A DNA stretch of 64,000 bases from Streptomyces sp. Je 1-79 (GTDB lineage: Bacteria; Actinomycetota; Actinomycetes; Streptomycetales; Streptomycetaceae). Below are positions 52,243-59,720 of the stretch, piece by piece. Every line of letters starts with the position of its first letter. The first letter of the stretch is position 1. Location of the stretch: the NCBI RefSeq assembly GCF_025195125.1, contig NZ_JAMGSL010000017.1, positions 1 to 64,000 of the forward strand. The letters are read 5' to 3'. Under the pieces are notes generated by a model. The model saw only the letters and a program-made list of their open reading frames with translations. It did not search any database and was not told where the DNA came from. The position numbers and the translations under genes were made by a program.

Positions 52243-53115
52243 TCAATTGGCGAACTGGAGGTTGCGGACGCTCCGCCACCGCTCCGCGAGCCGGCCGTAC
52301 GCCTCGCTCGCCGCCTCCCCGTCGCCGTCCTTCAGCGCCGCGATCCCCTCGGCCACATCGGCCGCCGACCGGTCCGCCGCGAGCAGCTCCGCCGACAGCA
52401 CGTGCACCAGACCGCCGTAGTCCAGCTCCACCAGCGCCCGCGGATGGAACTCCTCCAGCCACCGGCCGACCTCGACCAGACCCTCCGTCATCGGCCCCTC
52501 GTCGATCGACTCCCGCAGCGCCCGCAGCGCCCGCGCCAACCGCCGCCGCGCCTGCACCATCGGGGTCCGGTACCGGAACACCGGCGCGGCGCCCCGCTCC
52601 GGGTCCCCGGGCACGTACTCCCGCTCCTCGTCCGAGAAGAGCGTGAACCAGCGCACCGGGACCTGCCAGACCGCCGTACGGATCCACGGGCGGGCGTCCG
52701 GGTTCCGCTCCCGCCAGCGCTCGTGGTCCGCCGCCGCCTGGGCGCGCACGACCGGCGGCAGCATCGCGTCGAGCACCGGACCCGGCAGCGAACGCCCCGG
52801 CTCGGCCTCCCCGGCCCGCCCCAGCTCGTCCAGGGCCAGCCACGCCCGCATCCTGGTCCGCCATGGGCAGACCACCACCACCCCGTCGACGTACGCGACG
52901 AAGGCGTCCCCGCTCTCCTGGACCGGCACCGGGACCGGCGGGGTCGGCAGCAGGTCCGCCAGCGACCGCCGCAGTTCGTCCTGCGCGGTCGGTGTCTCCG
53001 CCCGGCGCGCGTACTGCGCCCAGTGCCCCCGCTCCGGCTCCGGAAAGGCCCCCAGCGGTTCGTAGACCCGCAGATAGGAGGCGTACGGGACGAGGACCGA
53101 GGAGGCGACCGACAT
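52243..53115 (-). CDS. Conserved Streptomyces protein of unknown function
   Basis: 290 aa from ATG 53115, after GGAAGGA. A soluble, mixed alpha/beta protein: a beta-rich start ([20 protein letters not shown]), [20 protein letters not shown], and a helical C-terminal half ending [17 protein letters not shown]. No catalytic motif, signal or membrane helix. It is divergent from vdh and upstream of bldC, matching the recalled SCO4090 position. Function unknown. Confidence 0.7.
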
Positions 53116-53273
53116 GTCGCGATCCTTCCACGGCAGTACTCCAGGAGGGGGTGATCCTGAGCACTGCGGCTGATCTACGCACGCGTAGGACTTACTCTCT
53201 TGCCGAACCGGTCCCACCACCACCCACAGGAGGGGCCGGCCAACCCGCCGCTTCGTACTTGGGAGTCACCACC

Positions 53274-54368
53274 GTGACCGATGTGACCGGCGTTCCTGCT
53301 GCTGACGTACTGCACACCCTGTTCCACTCGGAGCAGGGTGGCCACGAGCAAGTCGTGCTCTGCCAGGACCGCGCCTCCGGCCTCAAGGCCGTCATCGCCC
53401 TCCACTCCACCGCCCTGGGCCCCGCCCTCGGCGGCACCCGGTTCTACCCGTACGCCTCCGAGGCCGAGGCAGTCGCCGACGCGCTGAACCTCTCCCGGGG
53501 CATGTCGTACAAGAACGCCATGGCCGGCCTCGACCACGGCGGCGGCAAGGCCGTGATCATCGGCGACCCCGACAGGATCAAGACGGAAGAGCTGCTGCTC
53601 GCCTACGGGCGCATGGTCGCCTCCCTCGGCGGCCGCTACGTGACGGCCTGCGACGTCGGCACCTACGTCGCCGACATGGACGTCGTGGCCCGCACCAACC
53701 AGTGGACCACCGGCCGCTCCCCCGAGAACGGCGGCGCCGGCGACTCCTCGGTCCTCACCGCCTTCGGTGTCTTCCAGGGCATGCGCGCCTCCGCCCAGAC
53801 CCTCTGGGGCGACCCCACGCTGCGCGACCGCAAGGTCGGCGTCGCGGGCGTCGGCAAGGTCGGCCACTACCTCGTCGAGCACCTCCTGAAGGACGGCGCC
53901 GAGGTGTACATCACCGATGTGCGCGAGGAGTCGGTGCGCCGGATCACGGACAGGTTCCCGCAGGTCCAGGTCGTCGCGGACACCGACGCCCTGATCCGGG
54001 TGGAGGGCCTGGACGTGTACGCCCCGTGCGCCCTCGGCGGCGCCCTGAACGACGAGACCGTCCCGGTCCTCACCGCGAAGATCGTCTGCGGCGCGGCCAA
54101 CAACCAGCTCGCGCACCCCGGCGTCGAGAAGGACCTCGCGGACCGCGGGATCCTCTACGCGCCCGACTACGTGGTCAACGCCGGTGGCGTGATCCAGGTC
54201 GCCGACGAGCTGCACGGCTTCGACTTCGACCGCTGCAAGGCGAAGGCCACGAGGATCTTCGACACCACCCTCGAAATCTTCGCGCGTGCGAAGGCGGACG
54301 GCATTCCGCCGGCCGCCGCCGCCGACCGGATCGCCGAGCAGCGGATGGCGGACGCCCGCCGCGGCTGA
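53274..54368 (+). CDS. vdh: Valine (Leu/Phe/Val) dehydrogenase
   Basis: 364 aa, the known length of Streptomyces valine dehydrogenase. NAD-dependent oxidative deamination of branched-chain amino acids, feeding acyl-CoA starters for polyketides. The catalytic Lys is in [18 protein letters not shown]; the NAD Rossmann motif is [35 protein letters not shown] closes the site. GTG 53274 lies eight bases after GGGAG. Confidence 0.95.
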
Positions 54369-56208: not shown

Positions 56209-57735
56209 TTACGGACGGCGCAGCGCGTCGGCGGCCGCGGTGGCGGCGGGGCCGGCGGCCAGTTCCGTCTCGAGCAGCTGCTTGCCGAGCAGCTCGGGGT
56301 CCGGAAGCTCCATCGGGTACTCGCCGTCGAAGCAGGCGCGGCACAGGTTCGGCTTGTCGATGGTGGTCGCCTCGATCATCCCGTCGATGGAGATGTACGA
56401 GAGCGAGTCCGCGCCGAGCGACTTGCCGATCTCCTCGATCGACATGCCGTTGGCGATCAGCTCCGCGCGGGTGGCGAAGTCGATGCCGAAGAAGCAGGGC
56501 CACTTCACCGGCGGGGAGGAGATCCGGATGTGGATCTCGGCCGCGCCGGCCTCACGGAGCATCTTGACCAGGGCTCGCTGGGTGTTGCCGCGGACGATCG
56601 AGTCGTCGACGACCACCAGGCGCTTGCCCTTGATGACGTCCTTGAGGGGGTTCAGCTTGAGCCGGATGCCCAGCTGGCGGATGGTCTGGGAGGGCTGGAT
56701 GAAGGTGCGGCCCACGTAGGCGTTCTTCACCAGACCCGCGCCGAAGGGGATGCCGCTGGCCTCGGCGTAGCCGATGGCGGCGGGGGTGCCGGATTCCGGC
56801 GTCGCTATGACCAGATCCGCCTCGACCGGGGCCTCCTTGGCGAGGCGACGGCCCATCTCCACACGGGAGAGGTAGACGTTCCGGCCGGCGATGTCCGTGT
56901 CCGGGCGGGCCAGGTACACGTACTCGAAGACGCAGCCCTTGGGCTTCGCTTCCGCGAATCGCGAGGTGCGGATGCCGTTCTCGTCGATCGCGATCAGCTC
57001 GCCCGGCTCGACCTCGCGGACGTAGCTGGCGCCGCAGATGTCGAGGGCGGCGGACTCCGAGGCGACGACCCAGCCGCGCTCCAGACGGCCGAGGACCAGC
57101 GGGCGGATGCCCTGCGGGTCGCGGGCCGCGTAGAGCGTGTGCTCGTCCATGAAGACCAGGGAGAAGGCGCCCCGGACATCGGGAAGGACCTTGGCGGCGC
57201 CTTCCTCGATGGTGAGCGGCTTGCCGTTCTCGTCGGTCTGGGCGGCGAGGAGCGCCGTGAGCAGATCGGTGTCGTTGGTCGCCGCCACACGCGTGGTGCG
57301 GCCTTCCTGCTTCGGAAGGTCGGCGACCATCTCGGCGAGCTGCGCCGTGTTCACCAGGTTGCCGTTGTGGCCGAGCGCGATGGAGCCGTGGGCGGTTGCC
57401 CGGAACGTCGGCTGCGCGTTCTCCCACACGGAGGCACCGGTGGTCGAGTAGCGGGCGTGACCGACCGCGATATGACCCTGGAGGGAACCGAGAGAGGTCT
57501 CGTCGAAGACCTGGGACACGAGGCCCATGTCCTTGAAGACGAGGATCTGGGAGCCGTTGCTGACCGCGATACCCGCGGATTCCTGGCCCCGATGCTGGAG
57601 GGCGTAGAGCCCGAAGTACGTGAGCTTTGCGACCTCTTCACCCGGAGCCCAGACACCGAAGACGCCGCAAGCGTCCTGGGGGCCCTTCTCGCCGGGAAGC
57701 AGATCGTGATTGAGTCGACCGTCACCACGTGGCAC
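56209..57735 (-). CDS. purF: Amidophosphoribosyltransferase PurF
   Basis: 508 aa from GTG 57735. First committed step of purine synthesis: PRPP plus glutamine to phosphoribosylamine. A propeptide of about 20 residues precedes DACGVFGVWAPGEEVAKLTY, whose Cys becomes the N-terminal nucleophile after processing. Then come the glutaminase residues (RYSTTGASVWENAQP), the PRPP loop LVVVDDSIVRGNTQRALVKM and C-terminal cysteines CRACFDGEYP, likely ligands for an Fe-S cluster as in B. subtilis PurF. The start is near GGAG with poor spacing. Confidence 0.95.
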   Translation of the reverse strand: MPRGDGRLNHDLLPGEKGPQDACGVFGVWAPGEEVAKLTYFGLYALQHRGQESAGIAVSNGSQILVFKDMGLVSQVFDETSLGSLQGHIAVGHARYSTTGASVWENAQPTFRATAHGSIALGHNGNLVNTAQLAEMVADLPKQEGRTTRVAATNDTDLLTALLAAQTDENGKPLTIEEGAAKVLPDVRGAFSLVFMDEHTLYAARDPQGIRPLVLGRLERGWVVASESAALDICGASYVREVEPGELIAIDENGIRTSRFAEAKPKGCVFEYVYLARPDTDIAGRNVYLSRVEMGRRLAKEAPVEADLVIATPESGTPAAIGYAEASGIPFGAGLVKNAYVGRTFIQPSQTIRQLGIRLKLNPLKDVIKGKRLVVVDDSIVRGNTQRALVKMLREAGAAEIHIRISSPPVKWPCFFGIDFATRAELIANGMSIEEIGKSLGADSLSYISIDGMIEATTIDKPNLCRACFDGEYPMELPDPELLGKQLLETELAAGPAATAAADALRRP

Positions 57736-58041
57736 GTCTCCGAGTGTAGGGGAGGTCGACCACTGGTCCGAATTGGGGAAATCCAGGACCCCTCCGAGTG
57801 GTGTGATCCCACAAAGTGATCCATTGACGTGCGTAGACACCCTCCCGCCTAGGCGGGAGCGGGCTGGCGCACGGCCGGGAGCGCGCAAGCGGACGCTCGT
57901 ACGGTGCCCGGAGCAGGCCTGGAGTGTGACGGGAGTCGCACCGGCGGACCCGTTCCTGCGGGCGGGGTGCCCGGGAGAGCGCGTTCCGGGGAGTGGGACG
58001 GTCGTTGACAGGGGCACGCGCTCTGGGCCAGGCTCCCCGCC
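57736..58041. promoter_or_regulatory. Divergent promoter region of purF and the sulfatase unit
   Basis: About 300 bp. An 18-bp palindrome CTCCCGCCTAGGCGGGAG (57842-57859) lies in the purF-proximal half and could be an operator. On the right is the promoter listed separately at 58005. No gene is supported. Confidence 0.45.
58005..58034 (+). promoter_or_regulatory. Consensus promoter for the sulfatase leader
   Basis: TTGACA (58005-58010), an 18-bp spacer and CAGGCT (58029-58034). The predicted transcription start is at about 58041-58042, i.e. on the ATG of the leader peptide. Confidence 0.6.
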
Positions 58042-58134
58042 ATGCAGCCTGTGCGTGACCGTGCGGTCACCCTCGTCGCGCGCCGACACGTGGACCTCGT
58101 CCGTGTCGCCAGCGCGATCTGTCGCTGCGTCTGA
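58042..58134 (+). CDS. Putative cysteine-attenuation leader peptide, leaderless
   Basis: Thirty codons: MQPVRDRAVTLVARR, then HVDLVRVASAICRCV and stop. The tail matches the actinobacterial leader-peptide pattern (DLxRVASxxCR) found upstream of sulfur-assimilation genes. Two Cys codons stand four and two codons before the end. No ribosome site precedes the ATG and the promoter places the RNA start on it, as described for leaderless cysteine-responsive attenuators in mycobacteria. Just after the stop, CGCGGG/CCCGCG (58156-58171) inside a CCACG/CGTGG outer pair (58141-58182) can fold, giving a structure that ribosome stalling could affect. Confidence 0.7.
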   Translation: MQPVRDRAVTLVARRHVDLVRVASAICRCV

Positions 58135-58307
58135 TCACCCCCACGCGCCCTTGACCGCGGGAGTACCCGCGTACCCCCGTGGCCCCCGCCTGCCCGGCGT
58201 CCGGGGCGCCCTTTCCTGAGCCACGGCCCGTGTCCGGGCCGCAGTGCGACGCGCCGTCCCGCGCCCGCCCGGACCTTCCCGCACCCCGCACCTTCCAAGG
58301 AGTCCCC

Positions 58308-59720
58308 ATGCCCACGCCCGAGATCCCCCTGTCCCGACGCGCCTTCGGCGGGGCGGCCGTCGGTGCCGCCGCCGTCGGCGCGCTGGGTGCCGGCACCGCG
58401 CAGGCCGCCGTCGGCACCGCGCAGGCCGGGGAGCGGCCGTTCCGTGCCGCTCGCGGCCGGCACTCCCGGCGGCCGAACATCCTGTTCATCCTCGGCGACG
58501 ACCTCGGCTGGGCCGACCTGTCCTCCTACGGGTCCCCGCACATCCGGACCCCGCACCTGGACCGCCTCGCCCGCCAGGGCGTCCGGTTCACGAACGCCTA
58601 CTCCGGCTCCGCGACCTGCTCCCCGACCCGCTTCAGCCTCTACACGGGCCGCTTCCCCGGCCGTACCAAGGGCGGGCTCGCCGAGCCGATCGCCGACAGG
58701 TCCGTCGGTCTGGAGCCGACCCACCCCACGCTCGCCTCCCGGCTGCGCGAGGCCGGGTACGCCACCGCCCTCATCGGCAAGTGGCACTGCGGCTACCTCC
58801 CCGACTACTCCCCCACGCGCTCGGGCTGGGACGAGTTCTTCGGCAACTTCGGCGGCGCCCTGGAGTACTACTCCAAGCTGGGCCTCGGCGGCGAGTACGA
58901 CCTCTACGAGGGAGACGCCGAGTACAAGGACCTGCGCTACTACACCCGGATCCTGACCGAGCGGGCGAGCGAGTACGTGGCCCGGGACCACGAGCAGCCC
59001 TGGCTGCTCAACCTCAACTTCACCACCCCCCACTGGCCGTGGATCGCCGACGGCGACGAGGAGGCGAGCGCCGAGATCGTCCGGCGGATCAAGGCGGGCG
59101 ACCGCTCCGCCCTCTGGCACCAGGACGGCGGCTCGATCGAGAAGTACACGGAGATGGTCGAGGACCTCGACCGGTCGGTGGGCGAGGTCCTGCGGGCGCT
59201 GAGGCGCTCGGGCCAGGAGGAGGACACGCTCGTCTTCTTCGCCAGCGACAACGGCGGCGAGCGGTTCTCGTACAACTGGCCGCTCGCCGGGAACAAGGGC
59301 TCGCTCCAGGAAGGCGGCATCCGCGTGCCGTCCGTCCTTCGCTGGCCCGCCCGGATCGACGGCGGACAGGTCAGCGACCTGCCGGTGTACACCCCCGACT
59401 GGACGGCGACCCTGCTCGAACTGGGCGGCGCCCGCCCCCACCCCGCCTTCCCGCTCGACGGCACCAGCCTCGCCGGCCACCTGCTGCGCGGCGAGCGGGT
59501 CGCCGAGCGCGACCTGTTCTGGCGGGTGCGCGGCGAGCGGGCGCTGCGCCGCGGCGACTGGAAGTACTACCGGGGCAGGAGCGGGCGCGACCAGCTCTTC
59601 GACCTGACCGAGGACGCCCGCGAACAGGCGGACCGCGCCCCGTTCGAGCCGGAGCGGCTCGCCGCACTGCGGGCGGCGTGGGAACGGACGGACGCCGGTC
59701 TGCTGCCGTACGCGTCCTGA
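58308..59720 (+). CDS. Tat-exported type I sulfatase
   Basis: 470 aa from ATG 58308, after AAGGAG. Tat signal LSRRAFGGAAVGAAAVGALG. The sulfatase fold starts ILFILGDDLGWADLSSYGSP with metal-binding Asp pair; SATCSPTRFSLYTGRFPG holds the CxPTR motif whose Cys becomes formylglycine, so a maturase elsewhere in the genome is needed. GKWHCGYLPDYSPT and FFASDNGGERF add further active-site residues. It should release sulfate from external esters. The upstream Cys leader peptide suggests induction by cysteine shortage. Confidence 0.92.
   Translation: MPTPEIPLSRRAFGGAAVGAAAVGALGAGTAQAAVGTAQAGERPFRAARGRHSRRPNILFILGDDLGWADLSSYGSPHIRTPHLDRLARQGVRFTNAYSGSATCSPTRFSLYTGRFPGRTKGGLAEPIADRSVGLEPTHPTLASRLREAGYATALIGKWHCGYLPDYSPTRSGWDEFFGNFGGALEYYSKLGLGGEYDLYEGDAEYKDLRYYTRILTERASEYVARDHEQPWLLNLNFTTPHWPWIADGDEEASAEIVRRIKAGDRSALWHQDGGSIEKYTEMVEDLDRSVGEVLRALRRSGQEEDTLVFFASDNGGERFSYNWPLAGNKGSLQEGGIRVPSVLRWPARIDGGQVSDLPVYTPDWTATLLELGGARPHPAFPLDGTSLAGHLLRGERVAERDLFWRVRGERALRRGDWKYYRGRSGRDQLFDLTEDAREQADRAPFEPERLAALRAAWERTDAGLLPYAS

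Follow-up and report, generated by a model that had tools for sequence, protein, structure and literature searches.

A leaderless, cysteine-containing leader peptide predicted to control a secreted sulfatase gene in Streptomyces

Cysteine leader peptides, leaderless ones included, are already known, as is the NCBIfam family NF042934, to which the reading frame described here belongs. Those of M. smegmatis reportedly act by translational attenuation, at the Shine-Dalgarno (SD) step, in work ascribed to Canestrari in 2020. In the E. coli tnaC leader, stalling is brought about by the nascent peptide together with free tryptophan. The logic proposed for tnaC, in which a site of Rho entry is shielded by a ribosome held where the leader frame ends, is shared by the scheme put forward below, except that a hungry Cys codon is proposed to stall the ribosome on the sulfatase leader.

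Shell 2015 (PMC4633059) describes mycobacterial Cys leader ORFs on leaderless transcripts upstream of sulfur genes. The mycobacterial Cys-rich leaders modelled as NF042936 (Ms4527A) and NF042933 (Ms5788A) share with the present locus a short ORF, sulfur genes downstream and Cys near the end of the frame; the sulfatase leaders differ in having one to four Cys instead of a Cys cluster, in their host group (Streptomyces) and in their target, a secreted sulfatase. PMC13236596 cites the M. smegmatis Cys leaders as a case of translation attenuation. Terminator-less Cys leaders of Mycobacterium, P. acnes and B. longum appear in Seliverstov 2005 (PMC1262725), where Rho was proposed to act at polypyrimidine motifs in the spacers and tnaC was named as an analogue, although the authors graded the Rho prediction as weak because the motifs were not conserved. 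The sulfatase leader resembles these in carrying Cys, in lacking a terminator and in the proposed role of Rho; it differs in that C exceeds G in 103/103 sulfatase-leader spacers, and that study, in the sections consulted, reports no leader of this kind ahead of either Streptomyces cys genes or a sulfatase. A table of eight S. lividans attenuators in PMC8079986 contains none for cysteine or a sulfatase. Our literature search, which left most subscription papers outside its reach, found no description of a Cys leader upstream of a sulfatase, and a sulfatase as the target of such a leader is apparently unreported. As a separate observation, the S. lividans metNIQ leader 'metL' ends, in the sequence given in PMC8079986, in RCMCRRMCAF, and its three Cys codons suggest that it could sense cysteine and not methionine.

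The leader frame, its promoter and the sulfatase gene

The window, by which we mean the whole 64,000-nt stretch of Streptomyces sp. DNA analysed, contains the following features around the leader:

58005..58010, + strand: -35 element TTGACA of the leader promoter (from the sequence; TTGAC is conserved in orthologues)
58029..58034, + strand: -10 element CAGGCT (from the sequence; weak match to consensus; 18-nt spacer from the -35 element)
58042..58134, + strand: leader ORF MQPVRDRAVTLVARRHVDLVRVASAICRCV, 30 codons plus TGA (NF042934 match; predicted leaderless, with the RNA start at or beside the ATG)
58297..58302, + strand: Shine-Dalgarno AAGGAG of the sulfatase (from the sequence)
58308..59720, + strand: sulfatase, 470 aa (PF00884, 193 bits, E 9.4e-57)
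58617-58631, + strand: sulfatase active-site CSPTR (from the sequence)
56209..57735, - strand: divergent PurF-like neighbour with an approximate start, glutamine amidotransferase plus phosphoribosyltransferase (PF13522 clears its cut-off, PF00156 falls just short)

The sequence-only reading had placed a 30-codon frame ending in VASAICRCV ahead of a sulfatase and had put its ATG at the RNA start of a consensus promoter. Both the frame (ATG at 58042, C-terminal VASAICRCV, TGA at 58132-58134) and the sulfatase downstream of it (PF00884 at 193 bits) are as claimed, and the promoter is so in part: its -35 element is perfect, but the -10 element is poor when compared with TATAAT and a generic promoter scan called no promoter at the window leader, so that the case for it rests on conservation. 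The leaders of a genus-wide survey and of a set of named loci were pooled for this comparison (130 found, 127 usable, 111 distinct), the start in the 76 named loci being chosen with a preference for an ATG having TTGAC upstream and that in the genus-survey loci being the nearest suitable ATG with no such preference (one start, that of L030, was shifted 21 nt by hand). With the starts so chosen, TTGAC lies 36-39 nt upstream of the leader ATG in 111/111 distinct leaders. The CAGGCT hexamer recurs in many orthologous leader promoters; in the window it is separated from the ATG by 7 nt, one base closer than in most leaders, which places the window in the minority. Counted from the ATG, A occupies position -13 and T position -9, each in 93/111 distinct leaders; the base preceding the ATG is C in all 111, and an SD-like word is found upstream of it in 18/111. 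We infer from this arrangement that the RNA begins at the leader ATG, or immediately beside it, and that ribosomes load directly there. Antisense and overlapping ORFs across the leader were considered and rejected, as none of the analyses supported them.

The sulfatase carries the CxPxR-type motif (formylglycine, type I sulfatase) as CSPTR, its N-terminus is Tat-like by eye (SRRAFGG), and among solved structures it is best matched by S1 carrageenan sulfatases, 6prm being one; the same genome has two matches to the FGE-sulfatase family PF03781. The META-domain gene that follows lies in the opposite orientation, and the sulfatase is therefore probably the sole gene of its transcript. The divergent PurF-like gene is outside the leader-sulfatase system. 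Elsewhere in the window, 52863-54365 (+ strand) encodes a Glu/Leu/Phe/Val dehydrogenase-family protein whose top NCBIfam match, tryptophan dehydrogenase ScyB, is below cut-off.

Scored against NF042934 ('putative leader peptide'), the window leader reaches 41.1 bits, with a cut-off of 27, over profile positions 1-19 of 19. The entry (cis_reg_atten) is of the general domain type, and its description names no target or mechanism. Six matches exceed the cut-off in the 7.28 Mb genome, for which 150/248 candidates were scored, and the window leader is the highest; by simple arithmetic, six randomly placed sites would have a chance of about 1e-4 of falling on the same strand at most 300 nt upstream of a given gene. 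None of 14 control genomes gave a match above cut-off, with weak matches at E up to 10 in 10 of them. At E 0.001 the family is found in 21/21 near-relative genomes, and at E 1e-5 in 5/119 genomes sampled across the phylum, in two genera. Against the mycobacterial Cys-rich models the window leader scores 28.2 bits (NF042936) and 18.7 bits (NF042933), both below their cut-off of 45.

Occurrence of the leader among relatives and before other genes

A sulfatase match at E 1e-60 or better was found in 73/199 genomes of the genus, and the upstream stretches were inspected for 70/73, two with partial matches (G006, G119) and one with only a 44% paralogue (G184) being omitted at first. A leader lies within 600-700 nt upstream of the sulfatase in 54/70 of these loci, and a 900-nt search added those of G031 and G154 to give 56/70. 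In a survey at the level of the family, the sulfatase was matched at E 1e-100 or better in 11/150 genomes, of which two lie outside the genus, one with the leader (L229) and one without (L228). The named loci, a set biased to near relatives because only the closest 80 of 478 relatives were taken, have the leader upstream of the sulfatase in 76/80; of the four that lack a leader call, two are at a contig edge (L096, L171), one has a run of N (L104) and one, from S. typhae (L129), is truly without it. Strains of S. albidoflavus and of S. griseus are among the named bearers. In G006 a full leader (L176, L236) stands before a sulfatase that matches in its last part alone, and the gene looks broken. 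Flags marking '1 TGA' on five close sulfatase matches had suggested in-frame stops, a suggestion rejected for three of them: L026, L027 and L028 encode a slightly shorter protein that terminates normally at this stop.

When 132 distinct sulfatases were placed on a tree, 112 had the leader, 17 did not and 3 were unscorable. On this FastTree phylogeny, which is unrooted and has many open forks, leader presence requires at least nine changes, six of them forced by well-supported branches, as against 16.3 when shuffled (0/500 shuffles as low), and leader bearers occur in both main sulfatase clades (10/23 rows and 102/109 rows). The sequence-only reading had named a leader not conserved in related species as the outcome that would count against it; with 112/129 scorable sulfatases bearing the leader and 17/129 having it missing or reduced, that outcome was not found. 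With this conservation, the family match and the peptide-level selection described below, there is good support at the level of sequence for a Cys-containing regulatory leader of the sulfatase, predicted to be leaderless, and we regard the leader as real.

The loci without a full leader show some of the routes by which it disappears. Natural deletions in L048 and L129 have run the promoter and the leader ATG directly into the sulfatase frame, so that the sulfatase would be read from a leaderless start without the attenuator, and we predict it to be leaderless and unattenuated there. In L203 and L204 a promoter-like sequence persists (TTGCC and TTGAC), as does a short frame that closes with TGT CGC TGA but from which the RRHVDL core is gone; such shortened frames may be either decaying or minimal sensors. 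A TTGAC promoter-like sequence is also retained in the leader-less L207, L213 and L228.

Of the 13 leaders considered in this genome, seven score below the NF042934 cut-off; at least seven of the 13, the sulfatase leader included, precede sulfur genes by name. The genes so preceded include a ThiS-type carrier (with a CysM-like gene, named by eye, behind it), a nitrite/sulfite reductase-family gene, a rhodanese-type sulfurtransferase, an SsuC-like permease for sulfonates and an SsuA-family sulfonate-binding protein, whose leader scores below the family cut-off. The last two place sulfonate scavenging in the same set. The scavenging target had been read as a departure from the core sulfur-assimilation genes; the target is indeed a sulfatase, but with SsuC-like and SsuA-family genes carrying leaders too it stands out less than had been supposed. 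Other leader-preceded genes encode a flavin reductase, an SDF symporter, a GST-like protein and a 2OG-Fe(II) oxygenase, and no gene was found downstream of the leader at L014. At L003 (G000:C2:560701-563757) an above-cut-off leader match at 1501-1557 precedes, at 1661-2215, a gene for cysteine dioxygenase (PF05995); since it would be odd to make a cysteine-degrading enzyme under shortage, the sign of control may be reversed at L003 or the enzyme may have another role.

Selection on the peptide and on the Cys codon

Three elements of the leader frame are considered here:

58081..58098, + strand: RRHVDL core of the leader peptide (pN 0.013, pS 0.475, pairwise means uncorrected for the tree)
58120..58122, + strand: core Cys (TGT, codon 27), putative sensor (TGT in 109/111 sulfatase leaders)
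58126..58128, + strand: second Cys codon TGC (codon 29), absent from some orthologues (from the sequence)

Across 90 distinct 21-codon segments, these pairwise means give the RRHVDL core a pN/pS of 0.03, and its second Arg is kept in 90/90 segments by way of five codons. Constraint of this kind acts on the peptide, and selection thereby shows that the leader frame is translated and that its peptide matters. At the core Cys and at the Ser of SA, unlike in RRHVDL, synonymous codons are rarely or never exchanged: TGT encodes the Cys in 88/90 segments and AGC the Ser in 88/90, the other 2 having Gly. In all 111 distinct sulfatase leaders one to six codons separate the core Cys from the stop, and Cys thus lies near the end of the frame, as in cysteine-responsive leaderless attenuators. 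What speaks against a cysteine reading is that Cys is sparse in these leaders, with a single one in 27/111, unlike in poly-Cys leaders.

The fixed codon extends beyond the sulfatase. A wider set of 82 leaders was assembled from 13/23 matches of this genome and 69 from 21 genomes, the remaining 10/23 matches being weak or within long frames; six rows were then excluded, five with A-V-D-L instead of H-V-D-L and one (L194) in which a contig edge broke the offset, and 72 distinct leaders were retained (loci L001-L014, L174-L202 and L239-L278). At the core Cys position these have TGT in 67 and TGC in 2, while other Cys codons up to 13 codons past the H are TGC in 35 cases and TGT in 4, and in the gene-like ORFs of the window TGT is rare (TGT 9, TGC 108). 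Because the leaders of the family precede different genes, with differing RNA context, the fixed TGT would reflect a choice of codon for decoding and not one RNA fold. This family-wide UGU rule is additional to the finding of a sulfatase target.

Strong selection on the peptide outside the Cys positions is also what one would expect of a small trans-acting protein, or of a frame that is merely a translated decoy, with no sensing of cysteine in either case. We judge such an explanation very improbable, as the frame has a fixed location and promoter spacing before the sulfatase, the core Cys is fixed both in identity and in codon, and several further sulfur genes have this core upstream of them.

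The spacer and the mode of attenuation

Between the leader and the sulfatase lies one further feature:

58135..58296, + strand: spacer rich in C and poor in G (C 0.51, G 0.28), a candidate region for Rho entry (from composition)

The spacers of the sulfatase leaders average C 0.483 and G 0.267; C exceeds G in 103/103 distinct spacers, and C/G is above 1.5 in 86. In control intergenic regions of the named loci the corresponding counts are 44/103 and 7/103, although these regions include untranscribed DNA and the C-richness may therefore in part be a trait of long 5' UTRs. The stretches just upstream of the leader promoter give 28/102 and 6/102, and the intergenic regions of the window 8/17 and 1/17. 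The first 45 nt past the leader stop (C 0.49, G 0.21) are weakly folded, and a C-rich, G-poor, weakly folded RNA is what a Rho-dependent attenuator calls for after the leader stop.

The sequence-only reading had looked instead to RNA hairpins after the stop. In the window these do not go beyond what composition yields, whether leader and spacer are folded together (z -1.40, 16/200 shuffles as good) or the spacer is taken by itself (z -1.00, 35/200), and they carry no weight. What stands of the proposed cysteine-attenuation leader is the Cys-containing, predictably leaderless leader, on family match, conservation and selection; its response to cysteine is a prediction. No terminator-like site was found in 57800-58400, and Rfam at E up to 1 returned only a sub-threshold snoRNA match by chance, outside the leader. 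Taken over the orthologues, spacers show somewhat more folding than shuffled versions of themselves (mean z -1.45, 32/90 below -2; controls -0.91, 21/100), and strong hairpins lie just upstream of the SD in some (L078, L081, L088), so that a structure-based step may be involved.

Those pre-SD hairpins could belong to transcription attenuation by a factor-independent hairpin lacking a U-tail and placed just before the SD. This we consider quite improbable: the hairpins differ between orthologues in both sequence and position, with only weak ones in others such as L085, the window has no terminator-like site in the region given above, and nothing points to an anti-terminator involving the leader. 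Leader and spacer paired no more than shuffles did (18.15 versus 19.77, 45 sequences); this result and the lack of a terminator-like site in that region led us to reject a classical terminator/anti-terminator attenuator. Hairpins near the SD in some orthologues would suit translational attenuation as well, in which a ribosome stalled at the Cys codons frees the sulfatase SD from RNA structure that otherwise hides it, the mechanism ascribed to M. smegmatis Cys leaders (cited in PMC13236596). In 49 of 54 leaders (L060, L091 and three without an SD-linked start being omitted), masking the leader as a stalled ribosome would do barely altered the predicted exposure of the SD (mean 0.274 versus 0.290); sequestration relieved by stalling was set aside for want of a consistent change, and the absence of leader-spacer pairing above shuffles tells against it too. 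We regard translational attenuation as an unlikely but still substantial alternative. With spacers in which C exceeds G and whose first 45 nt are weakly folded, the evidence favours a Rho-type step over an SD step of the M. smegmatis type.

On balance, then, we lean somewhat towards control of the sulfatase by a leaderless cysteine leader peptide with Rho-dependent attenuation. The RNA would start at or beside the leader ATG and be loaded directly by a ribosome, which would translate the leader frame and its selected peptide. With ample cysteine, the ribosome would pass UGU-CGC-UGC, reach the stop and leave, and the bare C-rich, G-poor spacer would be bound by Rho, ending transcription before the sulfatase. 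When charged Cys-tRNA is scarce, the ribosome would stall at the UGU just before the stop, cover the start of the spacer and stay near RNA polymerase, so excluding Rho; the secreted sulfatase would be made and would release sulfate for cysteine synthesis. The parts of this scheme are not equally secure. A leaderless start, a translated and selected peptide and some response to Cys-tRNA are together very likely, while for the Rho step the considerations are about evenly poised. The leader thus probably restricts sulfatase production to cysteine shortage.

How so few Cys codons might suffice is a matter for a more tentative proposal, for which we hold out limited expectation: that the leader is a compound sensor and not a plain counter of poly-Cys, in which the nascent RRHVDL primes the ribosome and the fixed, slow UGU triggers the stall. 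Lying 8-13 residues before the core Cys, RRHVDL would probably be in the upper exit tunnel at that moment, and a slowly read UGU at a fixed position could convert a small drop in Cys-tRNA into a stall. Such a sensor would account for the sufficiency of one or two Cys codons, for the low pN/pS of RRHVDL despite its varying codons and for the restriction of UGU to the core Cys.

If the proposed control is real, Streptomyces couples the production of a secreted sulfate-ester hydrolase to the level of charged Cys-tRNA through a translated sensor in place of a transcription factor. The sulfatase would then form a single set, under the control of ribosome stalling, with genes of the sulfite-reductase, sulfonate-uptake and sulfur-carrier types. 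How leaders of this kind sense cysteine can be approached concretely through the fixed UGU and the selected core of the peptide.

A minor feature of the spacer may be recorded here. A GCGCCGTCCCGCGC-like block, used to select 25/121 spacers (22 distinct, the window included), has almost no covariation; at 58251-58264 of the window it takes the form of a short, nearly invariant hairpin.
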